A DNA stretch of 20,655 bases from a virus. Below the pieces are notes generated by a model that made no database searches, had not been told where the DNA came from, and worked only from the letters and a program-made list of their open reading frames with translations. The DNA lies in IMG/VR virus record IMGVR_UViG_3300022752_000471, positions 1 to 20,655 of that record. One strand, 5' to 3'. Shown here piece after piece: positions 1,480 through 17,139 of the stretch (positions are counted from its first letter, which is position 1; the number at the start of each line of letters is the position of its first letter). The position numbers were made by a program, and so were the translations under genes.

Positions 1480-2838
1480 TTAGGCGGCGACGACAGGAAT
1501 CGGGAACGGTTTGACGGCTCGCGCTGGCGCCTTGGTGCCGGCCTTTGTAAAGCCGAAAATATCTTTGCGATCATCTGGCAGGGCACCGTCGATGTAGATC
1601 GGCACCCATCCAGTCAGGAACTCGATTCCTGCAGCAAAGATCGGCAGCGCGTCCGAGTAGGCGTTGTTGCAGGACACCTCCCACAGAGGACCTTCTAGGA
1701 ACATGCACGATCCCTTGCAGATTTGCAGCACCGGACACCTCGGGCACTCCGCACGCTTCGACCAATGCGTTGCGGTTTTCAGGGCAACAGCGCCTAGGTC
1801 GCTGGTGTGCCCGATCCGATGTGGTTCGCCGTTCGGGGCGTTCGCCCTGGCACTAACGTTCTGGCAGGTCAGTACGTTGCCGCGCAAATCGACGGCAACA
1901 GAATCCGGATGGTCCATGCCGCACTTTTGCCCAAGAGAACTTGCGGGACGACGCGTGCGGATCGAATTGACGAAGGATGCGATCCTGTCCTTTATCGCTG
2001 CGAAATTCGCAGTCTGACCGGTTCTAATCTCCTGGAAGGCTCGGGTGCGAAAGGGATGAAAGTCGTTCGGGCCGAGCGAAGTGGCAAGTCCACCCTCGTC
2101 GTAGGCATCAACGACCGATCCCTCGCCGATCGGAACATCCTGATCGCCCGTCAGCTGTACAAAGAATCGGACCACCTCAGCGCGCGAGACGTTGTGCCGG
2201 TTCATCATGGCGTTAAAGCTTACTCGGCGCTTGGGAGCAAGGTGCCGATAGAGATCCAGGATCGCCGCACGGTGCTCCGGATTGGCCAGGGGATCAGGGC
2301 CGCGCACATGCTGCCCGGGGCCGTCATGGGAGATGCCGACGTTGAAACCGAGCTCGTCGAGCCACTCGTTGATCTCCGGCGAAAGCAAAGACCCGTTGGT
2401 GATAATCCCGAAGGACGCGTCCGGGTACTTGGCACGCAAGGCATCTGCTAGCGGTCGAAGTGTCTTGATGTAGACGAGCGGCTCACCGCCCCAGAATTCA
2501 ACGCGCTCTGGTTGAGCAGTCACCCACCGATCAAGGTCACTAAGAAACCCCTCTACGTCGCCAGGATTGGTCTCATCGGCGCGAGGCACAAAGCGCTGGG
2601 AGCAGTATTCGCAAGAGTAGTTGCAGGACAGTCCGAGAGAGATTTTCAGCACCCGCGGGGTGATCTTGCCGAGGGGCTCGGCACGAGAAGTACGCGCGGC
2701 TACGGGCCGTTCGGCGACCCCGTGCGCGGGAACGAGTGCCTGGCCTTCCGCGTCGGTTAGGTCCCCGGTCTGGTTGTCATAAAAGATCGCACGACGCTCT
2801 CCGGTCGACGGCCGAAGGGCATGGATAGTGAATTTCAT
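1480..2838 (-). CDS. Radical SAM/SPASM-domain enzyme, putative protein maturase
   Basis: This 452-residue protein has the radical SAM cluster motif CNYSCEYC (C72, C76, C79), the SAM-binding WGGEP motif at 116-120 and an ITNGS strand at 146-150. Its C-terminal SPASM domain is complete: C306...G320-x4-C325, then C365-x2-C368-x5-C374-x3-C378, and C390. That is the layout expected for two auxiliary 4Fe-4S clusters. SPASM enzymes typically modify peptides or proteins (thioether or C-C crosslinks, Cys/Ser to formylglycine). About 60 residues precede the core and may be a substrate-recognition segment; I do not recognise a standard RRE there. The start overlaps the upstream oxygenase stop as ATGA, with AAAGGG 6 nt upstream. 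The substrate is unknown; the Cys-rich fibre tail encoded in the same unit is the obvious candidate. Confidence 0.9.
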   Translation of the reverse strand: MKFTIHALRPSTGERRAIFYDNQTGDLTDAEGQALVPAHGVAERPVAARTSRAEPLGKITPRVLKISLGLSCNYSCEYCSQRFVPRADETNPGDVEGFLSDLDRWVTAQPERVEFWGGEPLVYIKTLRPLADALRAKYPDASFGIITNGSLLSPEINEWLDELGFNVGISHDGPGQHVRGPDPLANPEHRAAILDLYRHLAPKRRVSFNAMMNRHNVSRAEVVRFFVQLTGDQDVPIGEGSVVDAYDEGGLATSLGPNDFHPFRTRAFQEIRTGQTANFAAIKDRIASFVNSIRTRRPASSLGQKCGMDHPDSVAVDLRGNVLTCQNVSARANAPNGEPHRIGHTSDLGAVALKTATHWSKRAECPRCPVLQICKGSCMFLEGPLWEVSCNNAYSDALPIFAAGIEFLTGWVPIYIDGALPDDRKDIFGFTKAGTKAPARAVKPFPIPVVAA

Positions 2839-3515
2839 GGCTGCCCTTTCAACGGACGATAGAGATCGGTGTAGTTGTGAGACGTCACGCGTAAGGTGAT
2901 GGCGAGGAGCGTGCGGCTGCCCTCGGATGTGAAAGCGTTCGTCTCATGCCAGATCGGCGCCGGGTGAAGGATCACGAGCCCCGGAAAGGGGTCGATGAAC
3001 CGTGTCTTCTCCCAGAAGGGAAACGACGCCATCGGCCGCGGATCGCAGAGGATCAGTTCTCCGTCTCCTACAGAGCGTTCGCGCTCTGAAAAAGGTTTCC
3101 GGTTCGAGCCAGTCTCCAAATACACGCAGAGCACGTGGTCGCAGGTGTGGTGATAGTGAGGAAGCGTGCGACGACCTCGCTCAAGATGGACAACCGGCAA
3201 GATGCGCACGACGAACTCGATCTCTTGGGCGTTGCGCACCTCAAGTGCCTCGCGCAGATACCGTCGGTAGATCTCATCGATGTAGTCCTGCAGCCGACCG
3301 AAAACCGGCTGTGGCGCAAGCGCTCGGTACGGCTCCATGAGCAGATTGAATTGGTGGCTGAGCGCCATGTTGACGTCAGGTAGAGAACAGGTTGAGCCAC
3401 CTTCGTGAAACAGGGTGCGTGCGCGTTTGGCGAACTCGGAGAGCGCCTGGATCTCGTCGTCAGCGAATGGAGCGACCTCACGCAGGACCGGCGTAGGCCA
3501 GAGATACTCAATCAT
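2835..3515 (-). CDS. Putative 2OG-Fe(II) oxygenase (PF13759-like)
   Basis: A 226-residue protein from the ATG at 3515, which has GGAGG 7 nt upstream; the much longer in-frame extension lies inside the neighbouring gene and is rejected. The opening IEYLWPTPVLREV resembles the start of the 2OG-FeII_Oxy_5 family. A double-stranded beta-helix is suggested by LPHYHHTCDHVLCVYLE (candidate ligands H120/H122/H123, also D126), GDGELILCDPR, and the distal PAPIWHETNAF (H190) followed by R201 in GSRTLLAITLRV as possible 2-oxoglutarate anchor. The first metal site is not a clean HxD, so active-site assignment is tentative. It overlaps the preceding oxygenase by 8 nt and the radical SAM gene by 4 nt, indicating coupled translation and a shared job. 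Confidence 0.7.
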   Translation of the reverse strand: MIEYLWPTPVLREVAPFADDEIQALSEFAKRARTLFHEGGSTCSLPDVNMALSHQFNLLMEPYRALAPQPVFGRLQDYIDEIYRRYLREALEVRNAQEIEFVVRILPVVHLERGRRTLPHYHHTCDHVLCVYLETGSNRKPFSERERSVGDGELILCDPRPMASFPFWEKTRFIDPFPGLVILHPAPIWHETNAFTSEGSRTLLAITLRVTSHNYTDLYRPLKGQP

Positions 3516-4107
3516 TGGCGACCTCCAGACCAAAACTGATGGCAACCCGCAGTGCCGGGCAGTAACGGGAAAGAGGACGTGCGCCGTGAAGCGCCGTGCC
3601 GTCGAAAACGACTGCGCGATTCGGGCGTACAACAACGCTTCGTACGATCTCTCGAGCACCGTCAAACAAGCAGAAGTCGCCGCCCCATTCGGGATCCCAC
3701 GTCGGCACCGGGTACCAGACCACGGTTCGCGATTGCCCTGAATAGGTTTCGGGGAAATCGCGATGGATCGCTGCCTCGTCCCCAAAAGACTGGGCATTGA
3801 CCCATACCCGTGTGAGCCCACGACCGGCAAAAAATCGCTCGCTGATGCGGGTAGCGACGCGCGAAAGCGGGGTGTCAGCGTCAACAAAGCGCTCGAAAGT
3901 CATCGTAGGATCGACCGCACGGTCTTCGTAGTGGTGGGAATGGATTCCTGGCAGGACGTAGTTGCGGTGCCAAAAGGTCCCACTCGAGTCGCGCCGCGCC
4001 TTCCAGCCAAACAGCAAGGTCTGTCCGGCTAGCCAAGCGGTGGTGGCATCGGTGAGCACAGGGTCGATCGCCTCATCGACGATTTCCATCGGGCCTACAG
4101 GGCGCAT
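3508..4107 (-). CDS. 2OG-Fe(II) oxygenase, prolyl/aspartyl-hydroxylase-like
   Basis: A 199-residue protein with the canonical dioxygenase signature: H115-x-D117 in AAIHRDFPE, distal H174 in VVFDGTALHGARPLS, and R187 in ALRVAISF as the 2-oxoglutarate carboxylate anchor. The WVNAQSF strand and the WGGDFCLFDGA turn fit the prolyl-4-hydroxylase-like double-stranded beta-helix fold. Such enzymes hydroxylate protein side chains or small molecules using Fe(II), O2 and 2OG. The start at 4107 follows a GGGGTGG; an alternative ATG at 4089 exists. It overlaps the preceding gene by 13 nt and the next oxygenase-like gene by 8 nt. It is only distantly similar to that neighbour, so the two are probably not a recent duplication. 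Confidence 0.88.
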   Translation of the reverse strand: MRPVGPMEIVDEAIDPVLTDATTAWLAGQTLLFGWKARRDSSGTFWHRNYVLPGIHSHHYEDRAVDPTMTFERFVDADTPLSRVATRISERFFAGRGLTRVWVNAQSFGDEAAIHRDFPETYSGQSRTVVWYPVPTWDPEWGGDFCLFDGAREIVRSVVVRPNRAVVFDGTALHGARPLSRYCPALRVAISFGLEVAND

Positions 4108-4796
4108 TCGGCCACCCCGGTGAAAAAGCGAAACCCGACCTTGACCTTCGCCCCGTTAACCGGGGAGATCACGGTATTGGTGGCAATGTTGGCCGCGACT
4201 GGCGTGCGGGCGGAGCGAAGCCATCCACCTGTGCATTCCCAATAGAGTTCAGTGCCCGTGAGGTCGAACGGCTGATCGCCACGGGATACGGTAGCGGTCA
4301 GTTCAATGCCATTGGCCGTCGTCACTCGGGCCAGCGAAATCCGTGGAAAAAATTCGCGAGAGAGGTCCCGCCACTGGGCTGCACTGAGCACTTCGTCCAC
4401 ACCGAGTGCAGAAACGTCGTCCGACTCAGCGACAGTTATACCCAGCGCCGATTCGGTAGGTGAGGCAACCAGGAGGACCGATCTCCAAAGTGCACCGCCC
4501 AAGAATCGTGCGAGTGGCCTTTTGTCGATATAAGTGGCCGCATAGACGTTTACCGGATCGACGTCATCAGTGCCCATTGCCCAGACCGAATAAGCGTGTT
4601 TCGGTTGCCCCGCGAGTGCGCTGAAGATTTCGAGGTCGATCGTCGATGTGCGCTTTGTAGCGTCTGGGGATGATTCACCTTCACTGGAGGCTTCGGTGGT
4701 GACATCTGCGCCAACAACCTGGGTCAGCATCGATCCCGAGCGCGACCATTGCCGGCGAAGCGGATTGTCGTAGCGGCGGACTGCATAGAGCTTCAT
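4095..4796 (-). CDS. Hypothetical protein between tail fibre and oxygenases
   Basis: A 233-residue protein that I do not recognise. The start at 4796 has GAGGAG 8 nt upstream, and the longer in-frame start overlaps the fibre tail codons. The N-terminus is basic (KLYAVRRYDNPLRRQW). A low-complexity acidic/Ser/Thr linker lies around 32-50. A mixed region follows, then a C-terminal beta-rich segment (about 155-233: ELTATVSRGDQPFDLTGTELYWEC, KVKVGFRFFTG) recalling Ig-like or baseplate upper-protein beta-sandwich domains. Only two cysteines are visible near the end. It lies 11 nt after the fibre and directly before the modification enzymes. It could be a fibre chaperone, a second virion component or an adaptor for the enzymes. 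Confidence 0.8.
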   Translation of the reverse strand: MKLYAVRRYDNPLRRQWSRSGSMLTQVVGADVTTEASSEGESSPDATKRTSTIDLEIFSALAGQPKHAYSVWAMGTDDVDPVNVYAATYIDKRPLARFLGGALWRSVLLVASPTESALGITVAESDDVSALGVDEVLSAAQWRDLSREFFPRISLARVTTANGIELTATVSRGDQPFDLTGTELYWECTGGWLRSARTPVAANIATNTVISPVNGAKVKVGFRFFTGVAECAL

Positions 4797-4807
4797 GACC
4801 GGTCTCC

Positions 4808-5770
4808 TCAGGCGCCGCCACAGCAATTGCAGTTGCAATCGCAGTTGCAGTTGAAGTTATACCGAACGGATCGAAGCTGGAGCTGACTGCCGTTATCAAT
4901 CAACTCAGTGCGCACTGTTGCGACGTTCCCGCTTCCGTAGCAATTGATCGGCACCTCGGGAATACAGTTACCAGCGTTGCCGTTGCAGTTGACCAGCGTA
5001 GGCGCGCAATTTGAGACGGATGAGAAGAAGTAGTCGTGTAGCCATCCATAATTGGCAGTCCACATCGAGCCGCTGTTGTTCATGTACATGTCCCAGTTGC
5101 CGTCGGACTTCAAGAATCCCATCAGGTTGCTGTTGACATGCAGATAGCGGGTCACGTTGTCCGTGTCCTGCATGTTGATGGTCGGGGCGGTGTTCTGAAT
5201 CGTCAGATTGCCCGTCATCGTGTCGCCGGTCTTTGCGACCCGGCTCGACAGGTCAATGTTGACCGTCGCGTTCCCAGCGGCGTCAGGCCCGGCACCATTG
5301 ACGGACCTCACAAACGCGGTGGAGTCATAGCCATCGAGCTTGTCGGCGTCGGCGGCCTTGGCGGTGATGCCGAGATAGGCGGCGTTGTGGTTGTGTGTGC
5401 TCGACGCAAAAGCGCTCGCGTGTTGACCATCAAGCAAGTCGGCATCCAGCCCAGTACCCGCACCATCCACAGTCAGCAGCTTCGCCAGAACATCGGCTGC
5501 CGTGTAGCTCGCGGCATTGAGCTTGGCTGCGAACTGGGTATCGATGCCGCTCGCCAAATCCATGATGAAGCGCCAGTTGTCCGGGTTGGTCCCGATCAAC
5601 TGGTAGAGCTTCAACTGATCCGTGCGGTAGCACAGCATCCCGATCTGAAGGTTGGTTGTTGGGAAGGTGGTGCCGCTGTTGCACGAGCTGGCGGTCTTGT
5701 CGTTGTTCAGAATCTCGATCAGAGAATCGGACAGCGTTCTGGACGACGGTATGTCGGTGAAGTTTTGCAT
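4808..5770 (-). CDS. Tail fibre protein with Cys/Asn-alternating C-terminus
   Basis: A 320-residue tail fibre. Two LDG repeats (DADLLDGQHASAF about 109-121 and DADKLDGYDSTAF about 141-153) and KTGDTMTGNLTI (180-191) are standard fibre-shaft motifs. The distal part (200-300) is rich in Asn, Gly and aromatic residues, consistent with a receptor-binding head. Cysteines cluster at 254, 262, 269 and 277. The chain ends with C308, C310, C312, C314, C316 and C317 alternating with Asn/Asp, then GGA. Such a tail is very unusual for an extracellular fibre and would be expected to chelate metal, form disulfides or be enzymatically modified. The gene abuts the preceding stop with no gap and leads the unit containing the oxygenases and the radical SAM enzyme. 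Confidence 0.85.
   Translation of the reverse strand: MQNFTDIPSSRTLSDSLIEILNNDKTASSCNSGTTFPTTNLQIGMLCYRTDQLKLYQLIGTNPDNWRFIMDLASGIDTQFAAKLNAASYTAADVLAKLLTVDGAGTGLDADLLDGQHASAFASSTHNHNAAYLGITAKAADADKLDGYDSTAFVRSVNGAGPDAAGNATVNIDLSSRVAKTGDTMTGNLTIQNTAPTINMQDTDNVTRYLHVNSNLMGFLKSDGNWDMYMNNSGSMWTANYGWLHDYFFSSVSNCAPTLVNCNGNAGNCIPEVPINCYGSGNVATVRTELIDNGSQLQLRSVRYNFNCNCDCNCNCCGGA
4811..4858 (-). other. Cys/Asn-alternating C-terminal tag of the tail fibre
   Basis: Residues 305-320 read NFNCNCDCNCNCCGGA. Six cysteines alternate with Asn/Asp at strict two-residue spacing. The codons vary (AAC, AAT and GAT; TGC and TGT), so amino-acid selection rather than simple DNA slippage probably maintains it. It is a candidate metal-binding knot or modification site. 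Confidence 0.8.
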
Positions 5771-7123
5771 CTAGTACCCCTGTGCAATCCAGGTGAAGGA
5801 GCCGGTCACGCGGGTGCCGGAACTGTTTTCGAGGACGGCTGTGAAGCCTGTCGTTGTGACTGCACCGAGCAGCCGAGGGATCGCCACAGCTGTGCCGCCC
5901 TTGTGGGTCATGGTCACCTCGGGTGGCACGCGGAAGCTGCGTGTGAAATTGATCACTGCGCCTGCGGCCGCATCGGTGATCTGTGCAGTGCCGCGATCGA
6001 AGATGTCGGGGACATCCACGGTGACGCGTAGACCGTCGATGTAGCCGCGGTCGGAATTGCGCGAATTCAGGATGGCCCGGAATAGCGCGCGACGGTAGGT
6101 GTAGTCGCCCTGAATGAAATCCCTGAAGTCGGTGTACCCGGGCGGGTGACCGGCCTCGACGATGGCAACGAAGTCCTGTTCGGTGATCTCCGTACTGCCA
6201 ACGATCATGTCGCTGATCACGCCGTTAGCATGTCTGCGGTACTGCTCGGCAAGAAGCAAGGCCTCCTGCGCGGTCAGTCTCACCGCTTTGCGCAGCGCAT
6301 CAGAAACCGCAAAGCCCTGAGCCAGATTTCGGCGGTAGGCCACCGTGCGGCCCAGTGCCTCGCCTATCGTGATCGCCTCAGCGACGCGCTTGACCGTCTG
6401 CCTTGCAGCCTTGTCGGTCGTACCAAAGGCCTCGGAGAAGGGTTTGCGTACCTGCTTGGCGCCCAGGTCGCTTACACCCAGACTTTCGCTGATGCGCAAA
6501 ATGAAGGCGATCAGATCGGTGTAGGTTTCGGCAAACGCGACGGCCTCCGAGATGCGCTTGGTCATCTGCCGATCCAAGTCGTCACTCAGCCCAAAGGCTT
6601 CGTAGGAATTCTTGGTGACCCCGCGTTGCGGGAGCTCAGAAATCGGCAGACTTTCGGCCAGGCGCTTGACGCCTCCCTTGCGAATCACATCACCCCAGGC
6701 TAGGCTCTCCGCGGTGGTCTTTGTAAGCACTCGGGTTAGATAGTCGGATGCCTGGAAGGACTCCTGCACCTCCTTGCGACTGGCTTTCCCGAGAGCCTTG
6801 CCAAAGGACATCGTTTCCACCCAACGAAGTACATAGGCGATCAGGTCTGAGTAGGTTTCCCCAAACCCAATTGCTTCTGATTCGCGCAGGATCAATTGCT
6901 TGGCCAGCTTTTCTGCAAGGGCCAGCGTTTCACTCGATCGCTTCGTCCACTGCCTACCGGTAGCCTCAACGAAGGCCAGCGTCACAGCCACTGCTACGTT
7001 GTAGACAGCAGGATAGGCCGTGGTCCAGTTCTTTCCGGCGCTGGCGCTCGACCATGCAAAGCCGGCGGTTGCCCAGGTGTACCTCGCTCCCTGGGTCTCG
7101 CTGACCGTCACCGTATCGGGCAT
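5771..7123 (-). CDS. Tail fibre/shaft protein with 18-residue tandem repeats and lectin-like C-terminus
   Basis: A 450-residue virion protein in three parts. Residues 1-60 form a Tyr/Ala/Trp-rich N-terminus. Residues about 61-297 are some 13 tandem units of about 18 residues with consensus K-R-x-x-E-A/S-L/F-x-x-S/G-D/E-x-L-x-R/K-x-x-x. Residues 318-450 hold a short helical segment and a beta-sandwich-like domain ending GSFTWIAQGY, resembling the H-type lectin or similar fibre-tip domains. The protein lies between a small tail-tip protein and the 320-residue fibre and abuts the latter's start. It is likely an extended shaft with a carbohydrate-binding tip. The family name is uncertain; virion location is inferred from position. 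Confidence 0.75.
   Translation of the reverse strand: MPDTVTVSETQGARYTWATAGFAWSSASAGKNWTTAYPAVYNVAVAVTLAFVEATGRQWTKRSSETLALAEKLAKQLILRESEAIGFGETYSDLIAYVLRWVETMSFGKALGKASRKEVQESFQASDYLTRVLTKTTAESLAWGDVIRKGGVKRLAESLPISELPQRGVTKNSYEAFGLSDDLDRQMTKRISEAVAFAETYTDLIAFILRISESLGVSDLGAKQVRKPFSEAFGTTDKAARQTVKRVAEAITIGEALGRTVAYRRNLAQGFAVSDALRKAVRLTAQEALLLAEQYRRHANGVISDMIVGSTEITEQDFVAIVEAGHPPGYTDFRDFIQGDYTYRRALFRAILNSRNSDRGYIDGLRVTVDVPDIFDRGTAQITDAAAGAVINFTRSFRVPPEVTMTHKGGTAVAIPRLLGAVTTTGFTAVLENSSGTRVTGSFTWIAQGY
6233..6943 (-). repeat. Coding tandem repeat, about 13 units of 18-20 residues
   Basis: Conserved Glu residues fall at 65, 83, 103, 121, 139, 157, 175, 193, 213, 231, 249 and 287 of the 450-residue protein, with one unit (near 268) lacking it. 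Spacing is 18 except for two 20-residue units, which carry the near-identical phrases ETYSDLIAYVLR and ETYTDLIAFILR exactly 110 residues apart, suggesting a six-unit block duplication. The units have diverged at DNA level, so the array is old. Confidence 0.85.
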
Positions 7124-7128
7124 CTCGA

Positions 7129-7575
7129 TCAGCTCATCGTGAAGGTGAAGACCGCGGTTAGGCTGTCATCTGCACCCTTGTTGACCACCGGGAATACCAC
7201 CCGGTCGAGCATGATGCCCCCAGTCGATGCGTTGAACACCCCGGCTTCGGTCAGAGCGCCGGTGCTGTCGCCTGCCAGGAAATCCGCGCTGAAAGTGAAG
7301 GTCTTGGTGCCTGCCGTGTGCGCGTAGGTCGCGGCATTACGGTCAATTTCAGTCACCAGCGCCGACTGAGTGGCAGCCGCCGCAGTCGTGCCGGTACCCA
7401 GCGCGATGAAGCCCATCACGCCGGGTCGGCTTGCAGCTTTGCCAATGGCGTCGGCGATGAAGTCAAAGCCAACGTTGACGATGATGTTGTCCTTGTGGAC
7501 CGTCTCAACCTCACCGTTTGCGCGGCGAAGAATCAGGGTCATTGCGCCGTGAAGCTGCATGGATTCGTCGATCAT
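7129..7575 (-). CDS. Small tail-tip/fibre-associated virion protein
   Basis: A 148-residue beta-rich protein starting at 7575 with GAGGA 7 nt upstream. It shows the pattern of a common phage tail-region family: NIIVNVGFDFIADAIG, then GFIALGTGTTAAAATQSAL, then LTEAGVFNASTGGIMLDR, and a final strand ending FTFTMS. Members usually sit between J and the fibre genes, as here, and are thought to be structural. No enzymatic motif is visible. It is the first gene after the hairpin that follows J and precedes the repeat protein by 5 nt. Confidence 0.72.
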   Translation of the reverse strand: MIDESMQLHGAMTLILRRANGEVETVHKDNIIVNVGFDFIADAIGKAASRPGVMGFIALGTGTTAAAATQSALVTEIDRNAATYAHTAGTKTFTFSADFLAGDSTGALTEAGVFNASTGGIMLDRVVFPVVNKGADDSLTAVFTFTMS

Positions 7576-7604
7576 GGAAAGTCCTCGTGAAATGGAAATG
7601 GATA

Positions 7605-7639
7605 AAGAAATGGCGCTGTCTCTTTCGAGGGCAGCGCCA
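7605..7639 (-). terminator. Hairpin with short U-rich tail between J and downstream fibre genes
   Basis: On the minus strand TGGCGCTG (7639-7632) pairs with CAGCGCCA (7618-7611) across a 13-nt loop. The following bases read TTTCTTT. The stem is strong but the T tract is interrupted, so this may be a partial terminator that attenuates expression of the genes after J. It lies in the 93-nt gap between the J stop and the next ribosome binding site. Confidence 0.55.
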
Positions 7640-7668
7640 CGGTTGGGGATAGATTGAAAAGCTGCGGT

Positions 7669-10600
7669 CTAGTACAGCCGCAAACTGGTAAAGGCTCCGA
7701 TTGGCGCGAGCGCCGAACTGGCTGACTCCACATCGCCGCCCATCCGACCGACAAAAAGCCGTCGCTCGGTGGCGGTCTGGCACACGCCGATGCACACGCG
7801 ATCTGTGCTCGATATCCCGAAGGGCACGCTCACTCGCCTGGACAGTTGGTCCTCCAGAAAAAACGCTGCCGTTGTGGCGTCATAGCCCACGAGGAGCGAT
7901 CCTGCGGGGCCAATGGCCGCCCAGATCACGCAGGTGGTGACCTCTGCCGGTATGAACCAAAAGGAAGTGTGAAACACCGACGGGATGCTCACCGACCAAG
8001 CCACGCGGGTGGTATCTCTGACCATGAGACCGTCGCCATACCGGCCGGCGGCATAGGCGACGCCTGCGGCCTGGCTTGAGACTGGACTGCCAAATCCACC
8101 GTCAAGGCCTGCGGTAGAACCGTTAAGACGCCAGCCGTAGACCTCACCGGCTTGCAGTGCATCTTCCCTGGCGATCTGAAACCGGGCATCCACGTTGGCA
8201 ATCGCACCGTCATAAGCCCACTGGCGCTTTGCCGCATCGCTGCTCCAAGGGAAATTCGCCTCCAGCCAAGTGGTGCGGTCATCGACCGAAGCCCCGAGGC
8301 TATTGAGCAGCGTGTTCTGCGCGTGGATGGGTGAGACAAGATCCACCTCAAACAGGTACTCAGCCACCTGGGCACCGGTGCTCATGCGCAGCACATTGCG
8401 ACCGTTGACCGAGACGACAGAAGCGAAGTGCTTGATACCAGGAAATCCCAGCGCCTGCTCATCGCGCGCCAGGATCAAATTGGCGTTCTGCGGCTGGGCA
8501 ACGACGGTTGAGACAAAGGTCGGCGTGTCGCTGTAGATGCCTGGGGAGGCAATCGCCTTGATCCAAAACTTGCGCTCTCCATCAAACCCCGAGGGCAGCG
8601 TGTAACTGGTGGACTTGACCTCAGCCACAAAGAGCGAGGCATCCCAAGCCGCACCCTCACGAAGCTCGTACCCTACGACTTCAGGCTCTGGATTGGGCTG
8701 CCACCGAAACTCCAGCCGGTTGGCCGACTGCACCACATCGAACTGACGCACGGTAGTGGGCGCTTGCAGGCTCAGCACGAAGGTCGTGACGTGGGCGCTG
8801 TAATTGCCTGAGGTGTCGTAGGCCCGAATGTGATACGGGTAAAGGCCAGCCGCGCTTTGGTCGTGGACCATCTGCGTGCCCGCGGTCTTGGCCACCAACT
8901 GCCCGTTATCCCAGCCAGCACCCACGCGGACCTCGTAGCCTGAAAGGTCTGCATCCTGGAGTTCATCCCAGGAAATCAGCAGATCGGAGACCCGGCGCTG
9001 CACCAAGAAGCCCGTGACATCCGACGGCGGCAGGGTCTTACCCAGAACCGTTGCGCTCAGGGTCGCAGGAACGCTCTCCTTGCGCGTGATACCGATCGCA
9101 CGCAGGCTGAATTCATACGCGCCTTCTTGCGCATCCCGGATTTCGACGTAGTTAGCGCTGGTGAGCGGCAGGCTCACGAAGTTGCCGCCTGCCACCCGGT
9201 AGGACAGCCGGTAAGCGACTGCGGTCTGCACCTCGCTCCAGGACACCTGAACCAACACCTGCGCCTGGTCTTTGACCCGGTACAGGCTCTCTTGCATGGA
9301 GAGCCCTGTCGGTGCTGGTGGCATATCCGAAAGGACGGTGATCGAGCGGGGCTGCAATGCCAGCCCCTTTTCAATCGCATCGAACTTGCTCGGGTTGTAA
9401 GCGAGTGCGGTGACTTCGTGAACCCCAGGATCCCGCTCGGCGACCGCAACCACCCGAAAGAGTTGCGGCTCGATGATGGTCGATGAAAGCACCCAAATGG
9501 CGCCAGCCTGCGGCACCGCACTGAACGGGATCGTCACCGTCAAGGCTCTGCCCGAAATCGGACCCACCAGGCGTTCCTCAACCGCCCCAGTGGGCAAAAT
9601 GACCGATAGCCGCCATGGGAGATCCGCTGGCAGGTCGTGATCCAAGGTGACCGTGCTGGCAGTTGCCGCAGCGATCCGGCCCCCAAGACGCATGCCTCCT
9701 CGAACCGGGTCGGCGACTTTGATGACGTCCCCCGGGCGCACCACGGCACCCTCCAGGCCCGTGCGGAAGGTAACGATCTCGGATTCCGACTGCTCGGAAT
9801 ACAAGAGCCACTTACCGACCCGGTGCGCCTGCCCCCTTGAGGTGCATCCCAGCGCCACCACTTCGCTTTGCACGATGCCGTAGCGGGCGATACCGGCGGC
9901 GTCCTCGACGTACTCCACCTTCTGGCGGTAGAAGTCTTCGGGGTCGTTCCAGGTGACCAAGGCCACCGTGTGCCTCGCCTTGGCCGATGACCCCTGGTAG
10001 GCAAATTCGCCATCCACGACATTGCTGGGCGCAAATTGGTAGACCGGATCGGCAGGCGCATCCTGCGTGACCGTGATCGCACCACCGGACCAGTACACCA
10101 TGCCCCGAAAGATCGAGGCCATGTCCTGCACGACCTTGTAGGCCTGCTCCCGCGTCTGCAAGTACAGGTTGCAGGTAAAGCGCGGCTCAAAGCTGCCCAG
10201 CCCGTTGGGAACCAACTGGTCGCAGTATTGAGCTACCCGATAGAGCGCCCACTTATCGACCTGGGCCTCGGGGATGTAGCCACCCAAGCCATAGCGGGTA
10301 CTGGTCACCAGGTCGTAAAAGCACCAGGCAGGGTTATCGGTCCAGGCGATCTTGAAAGTGCCATTCCACACACCGCTGTAAGCGCGCGTGGCTGGGTCGT
10401 AGTTCACAGGAACACGTACCCGCAGCAACTTCATGTCGTAGCTGCGCCGCGGGATGTTCGAGAACTGGGATGCATCGACCCGAAGCGCCACCAAGGCACT
10501 GTTGGGGTAGCGCAGCTTGCTCTCGATGACCTCGGTGTATGAATCTACGAAGGTCTTGTTCTGAATCGCACTTGAGGTCGAGTCCGCCGTGATCCGGCGC

Positions 10601-13264: not shown

Positions 13265-13969
13265 TCAACGAATCAGCCCAGCTGCCGGAAAGCCACCAAA
13301 AGGTAACTCAGCGTTCTGCCCAAATCGGGCCTTGCACGATGACAGGCGCTTGCCGCAGACATCCAGGCTGCTGGCGCCCACCGCCTGGTCATTGGCATCG
13401 AGGTAGGCCGTGCCGGTGTAACCGCACGCGGACCCGCGGTAGCGCCAGGGACAGACGTTTTGAACGATCTGCCGACGAGGGAGTGTGACCCCCTCCAGAT
13501 CGAATGATGCGGCCAACTCAAACTCGACCACATCCCTCGTTTCTCTGGACTTGCGGTCGACGTAGTACACGTCATCGGCAAATTCGGCCGAGGGGTCAGC
13601 CGTCGGATTGACGCCGCCTTCAAAGTTCACCGCATCGAGATACTTCGCAAGCGTCCTCTTACGCGTGATCTTGGCACCCACCAGGTCCTGGTAGGTGAGC
13701 ACCAGCGCCGTGATGGCGCCTGTGACATTGGCTACCCGCAGGCGCGGCCGAGGTACCTGGCCGTTCCCATTGAACTCGAAGCCTTCAACCTCGATAGGAA
13801 ACGCCTCATAGGCGTTGCCCTGCCATACAACCCGCTGCTGCAAGGCATTCGTCCCGGCATGAAAGCGCACCGGCCCCTGGCCAAACAGGGCCAGATCCAG
13901 CACAAAAAGTTCGATCACGCTGCTGGGCGCAAGCTTCTGGATTTCAGAGGTAATCGCAGCTGCGGTCAT
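13265..13969 (-). CDS. L: Minor tail protein L, iron-sulfur tail-tip protein
   Basis: A 234-residue protein of the lambda gpL family. The N-terminus (ITSEIQKLAPSSVIELFVLDL) and the middle beta domain (RPRLRVANVTGAITALV) are typical. The C-terminal part has four cysteines, C173 (NVCPWRYRG), C182 (ACGYTG), C205 (VCGKR) and C212 (SCKARFG), which in lambda gpL bind an Fe-S cluster. The protein joins the tape-measure initiation complex with M, K and I. Its start overlaps the M stop as ATGA. K should follow directly in this type of phage but is displaced by the plus-strand cassette. Confidence 0.95.
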   Translation of the reverse strand: MTAAAITSEIQKLAPSSVIELFVLDLALFGQGPVRFHAGTNALQQRVVWQGNAYEAFPIEVEGFEFNGNGQVPRPRLRVANVTGAITALVLTYQDLVGAKITRKRTLAKYLDAVNFEGGVNPTADPSAEFADDVYYVDRKSRETRDVVEFELAASFDLEGVTLPRRQIVQNVCPWRYRGSACGYTGTAYLDANDQAVGASSLDVCGKRLSSCKARFGQNAELPFGGFPAAGLIR

Positions 13970-14304
13970 GACAAATCGAATACCTGTTTGAAGGTAGCCC
14001 GCACCGATTCGACGTTGGGCTCATCCACGGATCGGCTCCACTCCTCGCACACAAACTTGGCAGCAGTGCCACCAGGAGGTGTCCAGTCAAATGCCTGCAC
14101 GGCACCCCGTGCACGCAAGAACGCATCGATTGCGGCAGCCTCGGTGCTGGTGCGCCCACGAAACTCCAGCGACCAAGCCTGGGGCTGGGTGTTGATGCCA
14201 AAGGCCAAGCGCTGCTCATAGCCGTCGCCAAAGGCCACGCGGCGTACGGTGGGCCGCATCGACAGGTTGGCTCCGACCGAAGGGGTCCAAGTAAATGTCG
14301 CCAT
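13966..14304 (-). CDS. M: Minor tail protein M
   Basis: A 112-residue lambda gpM-like minor tail protein. The family pattern is complete: TFTWTPSVGANLSMRPTVR, VAFGDGYEQRLAFGIN, WSLEFRG, FLRARGAVQAFDWTPPGG, then a final strand VRATFKQVFDLS. It is a tail-tip component that bridges the tail tube and L. It begins immediately after the tape measure stop and ends in an ATGA overlap with L, fitting the H-M-L-K-I-J order. Confidence 0.95.
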   Translation of the reverse strand: MATFTWTPSVGANLSMRPTVRRVAFGDGYEQRLAFGINTQPQAWSLEFRGRTSTEAAAIDAFLRARGAVQAFDWTPPGGTAAKFVCEEWSRSVDEPNVESVRATFKQVFDLS

Positions 14305-17139
14305 TTACACTGCCCTCCGGCCATCGAGCAGGCCACCGGCGCGCTTTTGTGCGAGCAGTTCTTGCCGCACGGCGCTGGCAATCGCCCGGCCAAGATCGCG
14401 TCCGCCCGGATCATCCCCGCGGCTTGACGCGCCCGCATCGGAGACGCTGACCGAAATGTTGAAGACATCCCCTCCGGAGGCGCCACCGCTCATCGTGACC
14501 GGAATGGATCGGCCGTCAGGCAGAGGCACATAGGCTTCTGGCCGGCTGCCTTCACCAAAGAGGGCCAACTGTGGCGAGTTGGCGATGCCACCCGAGGCAT
14601 AGCTGCGCAGCGCCATGGGGCCTGATCCGGTCATGACACCGCCGTTGGCAAAGCCAAAGAGGCCCATCATGGCGTTGGCCAACGGAATGGTGATCGCCCG
14701 CTGAATCTGGATCCGTATGAGGTCGGAGATGATCGAGTTGGCCAGACTTTTGAAGTCGAGCTTTCCGGTCATCACAAACTGCGTGAGCGCATCGGTCATT
14801 CCGTTGAAGGCCCGGCTCGTGATCGACTCGATCTGCTTGCCCATGGCTTCGGCATCTTCGATAAAGCTCTTCAGCCCCTTTTGAAATCCGGCCGTGAAGG
14901 GTTCAGCAACCTCCTTGGCGCGCTGCCCCAGTTCCTTGGCACCGGCAGCCGCAGTACGCGCCGCTTCGGCGATCTGGCGCATGGCTTCGGCAAAGCGCTC
15001 GTTACCAGGCGCAGCGTCAGCCACCGCACGCGCCTCGGAGGCCAACTGCTCAAGTTGCCGAGCACTTTCCTCTCTGGCGGTGGCCAGACGCCGCAAAGAC
15101 TCGAGTTCGCTGATCGCTCCCGACTCGCGCAGCAGCCTGACCTGCTCCTCGCGGGTCTTGAATTCCGATTCGGCTCGCGAGGCTCGCTCCTGGATGTCGC
15201 GCAACGCTTCAAAGGGACTGCGAATGGCGCGCTCCAGGGTGACCTGAGCGGCCTCTCGCTCCATGCGTTGGCGCTTGGCAGCCAGGGTGGCAAGCCGCTC
15301 CTCAATTTGTCGGCGCTGGTCAGCGGTTTTGGCAACCGTCTCCAGCGCCGTGCGCAGTAAGGCCTCTTCCTGGTCGAAGAACGTACGCGAGCGCTCCAGG
15401 TAGTCCTGCTGCGCGTTGGCCCGCAGATCGGTGGCCTCCCGAAACCGCAGGTAGCCCTGCTCCTGGTAAAGGTCAATGACACGCTGGCGGCTTCGCATGA
15501 TGGCCGCCTCATCGTCAGCCAGTGCCTGAAGCGCCTTGGATCGCTGCTCAATATCCACGAGCGTGGTCTTGAACGCTTCGCCGGGCTCCCGGATGTTTCG
15601 CTCAAGACCCGCCATCTGAACTTCACGCTCGAGTCGTGCGCGCCGGGACATCACCTCTTCGAGTCGCGCTGTGAGTCTGGCTTTTTCCTGGGTGGTCTTG
15701 GCAACGGTGGCCAGACCCCTTTTCAGGATGGCTTCTTCCTCGGCCATGTTGGCGCGAAGCCGCTCGGTGAAGTCCCCCTGCGCTGCAATCCGGGCAGCAC
15801 TTCCCTCCTGAAAGGTCAGAAACCCCTGGCCCTCATAAAGATCAATGATCCGCTGACGGTCTTTGAGCAGCGCGCTCTCGACATCGAGCGCATCCTGCAA
15901 TCGTTTGACGTCGCGCTCGATCCCGGCAAGTGCCTCTGCGCGGTTGGCGTCGCTTGCCGTGTTGTACTGCAGTGCGGGACGCTGCGGCTTGTCGCCCAGC
16001 GGGCTTACCCCTGCCTGCGCATTGCGGCGCATCTCCCCAAAGCGCTGGGTCACCGCATCAGCAAGCAGCGGCATGTTCCAGAGATCGACGTAGTTGCGGT
16101 TAGCCTCTTCGACGATCTGGTTGCGCTTATCGAGCGCCTCACGCAGCGCCTTGCGGTTGCTCTCCAGCACAAGGCCTGGCAATCCGCCGCGGGCAATGAA
16201 TCCGCCGGCCAGCTCAATGTCGGCCCAAACCGCCTGAAAGCTGCCGACGATCGCCTTGATACCCTGGAAGATGGCCCGGAGGCTATCTACGAGCACGGCA
16301 ACCGCATAGGCCGAAGTCTCAGCCCATTTGGCAAGCGTCCCATCGTCGCGCAGCCGACTGATGCCAGCAACCACGTTATCAGTCCCAAGCAGGATCTTCT
16401 TGAGTTCCTCGGCCAGCACCGAAAACGCCGGAATGGCGCTTGTCACCAGGGTCTGGGAGACAAAGCTGCTCTCCGCCCGCATCCGGGCCATGGCCTTGGA
16501 CGCCTTGTCGGCCTCCTCGATCTGCTGCGCTGTGAGCCAGATGTTGAGGTTTTGGTTTTCAGCAAGGTCCTTCAAGAAGGGCAGCATCGAGGCACCAGAC
16601 TTGCCAAAGAGGTCCATGGCAAGAGCCGTTTTGCCTGCACCATCCTCGAACTGGGCAAGTTTCAAAGCAACATCGTTGAGCACCTCTGCCGGATCGCGCA
16701 GATTGCCGCCAGAATCCTTGGCAGTGATCCCGAGAAACTGCAAGGCCTTGCTGGCGTCCGCCCCTTCGTCGTCCACGCCGGCAAGTGCCTTGGAGAGTTT
16801 TGAAAGATTGGTGCCGATCGTCTCCATGGCGGTGCCAGAGATCGTCGCAACGGGGGCAAGCCCTGACAAGGCCGTGGTGCTCGCTCCGGTCTGCTCGGAT
16901 AACTGCTGCAAAGCTGCCGTTGCCTCAATCGTGCGGTCAATGAAGTCGCGCAACGCGCCAACCGAGGCCGCACCGACCGCTACCGCGAAAGCGGTCTTGG
17001 CCACCGTTGCGACCTGCTGGAGCGAGGCCTTCATGTCATTGGCATGGCGGTCCAGAAGACGCGCGGTGCGCCCCAGATCCGCTCGAAACTCAGACGTCTC
17101 GGCCGAGAGCTTGACAACGAGAGAGCCGAGGTCAGCCAT
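14305..17139 (-). CDS. Tail tape measure protein
   Basis: A 944-residue protein that sets tail length and is ejected into the host cell. The N-terminal 200 residues are a tape-measure core region (ETSEFRADLGRTARLLDRH, hydrophobic AFAVAVGAASVGALRDFID). A long charged coiled-coil region (about 390-750) contains a 123-residue tandem repeat. Residues about 750-830 match the lambda-type tape measure C-terminal domain (SRAFNGMTDALTQFV, SLANSIISDLIRIQIQ), followed by Gly-rich GLFGFANGGVMTGSG. At roughly 0.15 nm per residue the tail would be about 140 nm, an estimate by analogy with lambda. There is no clear ribosome binding site; the start lies inside the end of T, suggesting coupling. Confidence 0.95.
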   Translation of the reverse strand: MADLGSLVVKLSAETSEFRADLGRTARLLDRHANDMKASLQQVATVAKTAFAVAVGAASVGALRDFIDRTIEATAALQQLSEQTGASTTALSGLAPVATISGTAMETIGTNLSKLSKALAGVDDEGADASKALQFLGITAKDSGGNLRDPAEVLNDVALKLAQFEDGAGKTALAMDLFGKSGASMLPFLKDLAENQNLNIWLTAQQIEEADKASKAMARMRAESSFVSQTLVTSAIPAFSVLAEELKKILLGTDNVVAGISRLRDDGTLAKWAETSAYAVAVLVDSLRAIFQGIKAIVGSFQAVWADIELAGGFIARGGLPGLVLESNRKALREALDKRNQIVEEANRNYVDLWNMPLLADAVTQRFGEMRRNAQAGVSPLGDKPQRPALQYNTASDANRAEALAGIERDVKRLQDALDVESALLKDRQRIIDLYEGQGFLTFQEGSAARIAAQGDFTERLRANMAEEEAILKRGLATVAKTTQEKARLTARLEEVMSRRARLEREVQMAGLERNIREPGEAFKTTLVDIEQRSKALQALADDEAAIMRSRQRVIDLYQEQGYLRFREATDLRANAQQDYLERSRTFFDQEEALLRTALETVAKTADQRRQIEERLATLAAKRQRMEREAAQVTLERAIRSPFEALRDIQERASRAESEFKTREEQVRLLRESGAISELESLRRLATAREESARQLEQLASEARAVADAAPGNERFAEAMRQIAEAARTAAAGAKELGQRAKEVAEPFTAGFQKGLKSFIEDAEAMGKQIESITSRAFNGMTDALTQFVMTGKLDFKSLANSIISDLIRIQIQRAITIPLANAMMGLFGFANGGVMTGSGPMALRSYASGGIANSPQLALFGEGSRPEAYVPLPDGRSIPVTMSGGASGGDVFNISVSVSDAGASSRGDDPGGRDLGRAIASAVRQELLAQKRAGGLLDGRRAV
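15124..15861 (-). repeat. 123-residue tandem repeat in the tape measure coiled coil
   Basis: Two adjacent copies start at residues 427 (DRQRIIDLYEGQGFLTFQE) and 550 (SRQRVIDLYQEQGYLRFRE) and stay in register through VAKTTQEKARLTARLEE / VAKTADQRRQIEERLAT and GLERNIREPGEAF / TLERAIRSPFEAL. A partial unit precedes copy 1. The copies have diverged, so the duplication is not recent. Confidence 0.85.

Follow-up and report, generated by a model that had tools for sequence, protein, structure and literature searches.

The tail fibre encoded in the window (the whole stretch of 20,655 nucleotides that was analysed, IMG/VR virus record IMGVR_UViG_3300022752_000471) ends in a ladder of cysteines, and comparison of related sequences shows that this cysteine tail is a conserved motif. 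The tail is associated with one family of radical SAM/SPASM enzymes, and the association holds in both directions, from enzyme to tail and from tail to enzyme. The association is one of linkage, not of catalysis, and on this basis we consider it probable that a RiPP-like maturation system for a phage virion protein modifies the tail, with the enzyme acting on it. Cysteine thioether cross-links are our tentative assignment for the product, based on the similarity of the predicted enzyme fold to known maturases and on the Cys-rich nature of the putative substrate. Our results suggest that chemical modification of the tip that touches the bacteria takes place in hundreds of phages.

The window fibre ends with NFNCNCDCNCNCCGGA (residues 305-320, encoded at 4811-4858 on the minus strand), and translation of the ORF confirms that the alternating cysteine run reported there by the first-pass annotation is real. 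That annotation described six cysteines at two-residue spacing, strictly alternating with Asn. The spacing applies to five of them (308, 310, 312, 314, and 316), the sixth (317) being adjacent to the fifth, and the alternation stands, with Asp rather than Asn as one of the intervening residues. Of the upstream cysteines that it listed, those at 262, 269, and 277 are correct and the first is at 255, not 254; Asn precedes all four. The protein stops three residues past the last Cys, with no Hint domain behind the tail, and the tail contains no His, hence no HxH, and has CxC instead. Codon variation, which was put forward as a sign of selection on the residues, is a weak argument within the window, where five cysteines are encoded by TGC and one by TGT, mostly as the hexamer AACTGC. 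The argument does hold across relatives, as the 51 distinct tails use TGC 253 times and TGT 32 times for Cys, and AAC 133 times and AAT 68 times for Asn. The AlphaFold2 monomer model of the window fibre was unusable (pLDDT 46.5, pTM 0.22).

We collected 79 homologous fibre loci from IMG/VR and based the conservation profile on 61 related fibres. In these 61 fibres the five alternating tail columns contain Cys in 95 to 100% of the sequences, whereas residues 301-306 average 34% identity to the commonest residue and residues 246-300 average 52%. Alignment of homologous C-termini, the check proposed at first, thus gave a kept Cys spacing within a varying remainder, and the high conservation of the tail columns bears out the idea of a selected Cys-rich tip domain. 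Upstream of the tail, conservation in the same fibres is high for N254/C255 (95/95%) and N276/C277 (97/90%) and lower for C262 (64%) and C269 (36%). An origin of the tail by chance or as a simple repeat is ruled out by this conservation, by the synonymous variation, and by background counts: CxCxCxC occurred in 65 of 200,000 shuffles of the window fibre protein and in 72 of 1760 distinct ORFs of at least 90 aa at the collected loci, 71 of which are fibre tails and 1 a spurious repeat. Rapid loss of Cys positions among close relatives had been named as an argument against selection; the number of CxC units does shift, yet the two-residue spacing is retained. The sequences indicate that the last units of the tail change fast by repeat change while this spacing is kept. 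Loci L315-L338 show this: the enzymes there are about 90% identical to the query, and the partner fibres differ in the number and identity of the CxC units (CACACDCACGNG, CACACACNCK, and CACACQCACDCGNG).

The genes for the fibre, a 233-aa protein, two oxygenases, and the radical SAM enzyme have the same direction and are tightly packed (Table 1), with the radical SAM/SPASM gene 1.9 kb downstream of the fibre gene. Upstream of the fibre gene there are more fibre genes and a gene for tip attachment protein J. At many loci, ORFs related to the 233-aa protein are located between fibre and enzyme, and these relatives share a C-terminal region that looks Ig-like by eye, not by domain match. The neighbouring gene at 5771-7123 of the window encodes a repetitive-looking protein of 450 aa with a sub-threshold C-terminal H-type lectin match (20.1 bits versus 24).

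Table 1. Features of the fibre and its gene cassette in the window
Feature	Position	Strand	Basis
Tail fibre protein, 320 aa	4808..5770	-	ORF; phrog_7389 and other tail-fibre PHROGs
Fibre parts: residues 1-245 conserved shaft; 246-300 variable tip domain; 305-320 Cys tail			Conservation profile
(N/D-C)5-C tail, residues 307-317, presumed modification target	4820..4852	-	
Upstream Asn-Cys dipeptides, residues 254-277, variable tip domain	4940..5011	-	
233-aa protein, function not assigned	4095..4796	-	No Pfam/PHROG match
2OG-Fe(II) oxygenase A	3508..4107	-	PF13640, 35.4 bits vs cut-off 27
2OG-Fe(II) oxygenase B	2835..3515	-	PF13759, 27.1 bits vs cut-off 27; phrog_81
Radical SAM/SPASM enzyme, 452 aa, presumed tail maturase	1480..2838	-	PF04055, TIGR04085, phrog_1802

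An enzyme alignment used to scan IMG/VR gave at least 559 relatives, and 83 loci were examined. At 66 of these, an upstream ORF on the same strand contains CxCxCxC. The other 17 consist of 14 loci whose upstream sequence extends over no more than 2.4 kb, two loci with shorter CxCxC tails beside the enzyme (...YNCNCACK in L120 and ...ACNCACCGCC in L122), and one rearranged contig (L004). The enzyme allele shared by L004 and L089 occurs in a context without an intact tail. A prospective test used the divergent enzyme L009 (about 40% identical) as the query, with the criterion fixed before looking; the tail was present at 23 of 26 new loci, and the other three had 0.15, 0.2, and 1.9 kb of upstream DNA. 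With a query from large myoviruses (L229), a CxCxC partner was found at 60 of 80 loci and an Asn-Cys-rich partner, often directly adjoining the enzyme gene, at 77 of 80. Because some of these partners have 9 to 11 scattered Asn-Cys pairs and no ladder, it may be the Asn-Cys dipeptide that is repeated. Asn precedes 69% of the cysteines in the partner proteins versus 4.6% in other ORFs of the same loci, the former value being inflated by the choice of partners with at least four NC. Over all the searches that started from the enzyme, practically every locus with sufficient flanking DNA encodes a structural protein next to the enzyme that has CxCxC or is rich in Asn-Cys.

The opposite direction was covered with a blind DNA pattern, AACTGC three times, which gave 120 IMG/VR stretches. 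The enzyme was present at 15 of the 24 loci with an in-frame NCNCNC and at none of the 96 out-of-frame controls (Fisher p=2.8e-13). On inspection, the nine in-frame exceptions turned out to be six spurious ORFs and three records ending before the expected position of the enzyme; L202, among these exceptions, matches L120, where the enzyme comes after fatty-acid desaturase-like genes. At 54 loci, divergence of the enzyme correlates more strongly with that of the C-terminal half of the fibre (r = 0.64, or 0.61 once the N-terminal half is controlled for) than with that of the N-terminal half (0.40 and 0.33, correspondingly). The C-terminal half adjoins the cassette, so genetic linkage alone could add to the C-terminal correlation. 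A general link of phage radical SAM enzymes to Cys tails is ruled out by the distant enzymes encoded in Campylobacter phage CP20 and in Salmonella phage SPN3US, which have no CxCxC neighbour beside them.

The tail is also found on proteins without detected N-terminal similarity (L008/L229, starting with MTLPSSG..., L138, L189, L196, and others), and from their sequences the fibre types that carry it are apparently unrelated. Single-linkage clustering joined 95 of 104 sequences through shared modules, so that fibre types need not correspond to independent origins. In the Achromobacter phages JWF and 2-1, a Hint autoprocessing domain directly follows the Cys tail; in JWF the junction reads ...NCNCDCNCNCS/CFPAGT..., with the Hint match (PF05203, 47.5 bits) starting at residue 308. 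The same arrangement is present in L043, L126, L181, L217, L229, L254, and L280, with Pfam Hint scores below the curated cut-off in L043, L181, and L229. Cleavage by the Hint domain would leave the Cys tail as the mature C-terminus, the state that the window fibre has without cleavage. Homologous fibres that lack the tail and keep the enzymes had been named as evidence against a selected tail; the fibres of JWF, 2-1, L043, and L126 do end differently, yet they retain the tail, followed by Hint. The fibre of Providencia phage PSTNGR1 also ends in a Hint domain, but whereas JWF has both the Cys tail and a radical SAM gene, PSTNGR1 has no Cys tail and no radical SAM gene annotated in the flanking region that was fetched. 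A Hint domain without a Cys tail rules out Hint as the reason for the Cys run. Among the NC-rich proteins of large phages (MTLPSSG...; L340-L419, for example L342:7491-8387, and L196:4335-5234), many have an extra C-terminal domain of about 165 aa, which comes directly after ..YNCNCACNCSKIICAKLYEFG..; that of L196, the one tested, has no Pfam match.

Because one radical SAM/SPASM family tracks the tail in both directions and on apparently unrelated fibres, we favour covalent modification. The first-pass annotation had suggested metal coordination even without enzymatic change, and this reading no longer leads. In the version considered here, the CxC ladders of the trimer would coordinate metal or Fe-S clusters along the axis as an unmodified needle, and the enzyme would serve another purpose. 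We regard this as unlikely, as it leaves the two-way link with the enzyme family unexplained; to our knowledge, T4-type iron tips need no radical SAM enzyme. In an extended chain alternate residues face the same way, so that a CxC ladder would put all thiols on one face, an arrangement that favours metal binding as well as cross-linking. Conservation of Cys next to a varying intervening residue (N 149, A 35, D 33) fits metal binding too. The CxC spacing equals that of the HxH motif of T4 gp37, a protein with seven bound iron ions (PMC11705849). The tip of this long tail fibre resembles the tail described here in having a repeated X-Z-X motif in a receptor-binding fibre; here, however, Cys replaces His, the motif is at the very C-terminus, and it is associated with an enzyme; the bound metal is an observation on the T4 tip.

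In another reading, which we consider very unlikely, the tip is stapled by disulfides between the tail cysteines, and the cassette has a different substrate, either some other virion protein or a component of the host. Extracellular fibres would indeed meet oxidising conditions, and further fibre-module proteins are encoded nearby in the window. However, the enzyme and the Cys tail stay together even at loci with other genes in between, and in five distinct tail-enzyme pairs there is no intervening ORF of at least 120 aa. Of 101 distinct pairs, 62 have a gene of the 2OG-oxygenase type located between the tail and the enzyme, a count that reflects cluster assignment, with Pfam confirmation for representatives of the larger clusters only. 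In L120 (5644-6393) and L086 (5453-7698), genes that by eye are fatty-acid desaturase-like lie between the Cys-tailed fibre and the radical SAM gene; the L120 gene has no Pfam match. In L055/L056/L121 and in L326/L327, two radical SAM genes of the family adjoin one Cys-tailed fibre.

The window enzyme belongs to the family described by phrog_1802 (2.4e-57, residues 56-407) and matches TIGR04085 (SPASM) with 30.4 bits versus a cut-off of 27. Ten cysteine positions do not vary among the 21 sequences compared, three in the radical SAM motif CX3CX2C (C72, C76, and C79) and seven in the SPASM domain (C306, C325, C365, C368, C374, C378, and C390). Two fully ligated auxiliary clusters need eight cysteines and the enzyme has seven, so one open cluster site is expected. 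Its AlphaFold2 model is of good quality (pLDDT 88.5, pTM 0.87). Among the matches listed, CteB is the solved structure nearest to it (Z 24.6, with an rmsd of 4.2 A over 360 residues), followed by ChlB (21.6), anSMEcpe (20.8), and TigE (19.1), and the epimerase EpeE scores 14.7; the comparison covers the listed families, and absence from the listing excludes no family. The enzyme stays below every NCBIfam equivalog cut-off, including those for the SCIFF maturase (TIGR03974, 20.9 bits versus 425) and PapB, and therefore we do not place it in any named maturase family. It has no RRE match, only a short beta-rich N-terminus (residues 1-50), and the alignment with CteB starts from residue 1. Viperins are not known to have a SPASM domain; the presence of this domain and the weakness of the viperin-domain matches (48 bits) rule out a defence/viperin function. 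The expected open site fits CteB, which has an open Aux I site; in the comparison made in the SkfB structure paper, the anSME clusters are fully ligated and the open Aux I site of CteB binds a substrate Cys (PMC6231123).

The enzyme could instead be a peptide epimerase that inverts alternate residues, giving a helix of alternating L and D residues whose period of two residues would equal that of the ladder. Asn-rich alternation with such a period is known from polytheonamide-type proteusins, which the tail recalls. Moreover, in L307 (G156:C40:29000-41000; 3839-4780 and 2478-3875) a radical SAM relative is encoded beside a protein in which an NHLP-type-looking leader (..LEQVAGGGG) comes with a core that is hydrophobic and V/A-rich and with a Hint domain, from its sequence possibly a Hint-released RiPP precursor; this neighbourhood speaks for the RiPP-like reading of the tail as well. 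Epimerisation is highly improbable nevertheless, as the EpeE match is far weaker than that to CteB and the conserved residue is Cys, not the alternating one. A reactive tip, made by oxidising cysteines of the tail to an aldehyde such as formylglycine, is extremely unlikely: the enzyme resembles the anaerobic sulfatase maturase anSMEcpe in sequence (2e-11) and in fold, and its JWF homologue is annotated as such a maturase, but in the alignment Gln follows the second SPASM Cys where anSME has the Asp that is its catalytic base, there are seven rather than eight conserved cluster cysteines, and the sulfatase_rSAM score is 36 bits versus a cut-off of 349.

For covalent modification of the tail, we propose the following sequence of events. 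The enzyme would bind the fibre tail, probably by way of an auxiliary Fe-S cluster in which one coordination site is free. Radical chemistry would join Cys sulfurs to carbons of neighbouring residues, and the resulting thioether staples would be like those made when SCIFF/ranthipeptides and sactipeptides mature. Many of these phages also have one to three 2OG-Fe(II) oxygenases, which may modify the tail further, plausibly by hydroxylating the alternating Asn or Asp. The variable receptor-binding domain would end in a tip that is rigid and redox-stable and that may contribute to contact with the host surface. In some relatives, the Hint domain would cut itself off behind the tail and thereby expose the tail as the mature C-terminus. 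We know of no thioether motif that consists of a strict CxCxC ladder with variable N, A, or D in between. Overall, we lean towards a widespread class of adsorption tips in which radical SAM enzymes and 2OG oxygenases cross-link and hydroxylate an (Asn-Cys)n tail and so make it the host-contacting point, which is released by Hint in some phages.

The nearest known systems are those of CteB, the closest fold, and PapB. These SCIFF/ranthipeptide maturases are likewise radical SAM enzymes with a SPASM domain, and their Cys-rich substrate is encoded next door. As in RiPP systems, the gene of a modifying enzyme is found here beside a putative substrate with a conserved core, judging from the adjacency and the motif. 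Unlike in the CteB and PapB systems, this putative substrate is a full-length phage fibre and the cassette contains oxygenases; instead of being a short precursor with a classical cleavable leader, the window fibre is a 320-aa protein with the tail at its own C-terminus. The same pairing of an oxygenase with a radical SAM/SPASM maturase is present in the NCBIfam families FlmC (2OG-Fe) and FlmE-OhkG (radical SAM), although oxygenase A matches FlmC weakly, its 46 bits being far below the cut-off of 240.

Radical SAM cassettes are known from the host recognition cluster, the tail-fibre region, of pelagimyophages, and a desaturase and a 2OG-Fe oxygenase are mentioned for freshwater pelagimyophages (PMC7029224). 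Marine T4-like phages contain up to 12 radical SAM genes together with Fe-S assembly genes (PMC5332604). The available portions of these two papers tie the radical SAM genes neither to a Cys tail nor to virion modification. Our search of the largely open-access journal literature found no description of phage fibres modified by radical SAM enzymes, and no reported substrates for phage radical SAM genes or for tail-module 2OG oxygenases. Neither the class of enzyme nor the RiPP logic is new; a virion tip as the substrate would be. If our proposal is true, several hundred or more phage genomes carry a cassette that remodels the host-contacting fibre tip, which would add a new layer to phage host recognition. 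Many phage radical SAM genes, and at least some tail-module 2OG oxygenases, would also gain a likely substrate, and radical SAM peptide chemistry would extend from small peptides to the virion surface.

Relatives of the enzyme are also found outside phages. Those in L305 and L306, which count against our proposal, are chromosomal and solitary, with no CxC protein near them in the fetched region. When the pattern was searched for across both genomes, one had no match and the other had one (L311). L308 (G112:C5:24000-40000; 13880-16000 and 3012-9662), a bacterial contig from a Burkholderiales sample, encodes two tandem proteins with a Tat-like signal, each with KKYNCNCNCNCCNCGDD followed by a Hint-like domain. 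It also contains five tandem radical SAM/SPASM genes and a gene for a protein resembling the 233-aa protein of the window, and from its gene content it is apparently a non-phage version of the system.
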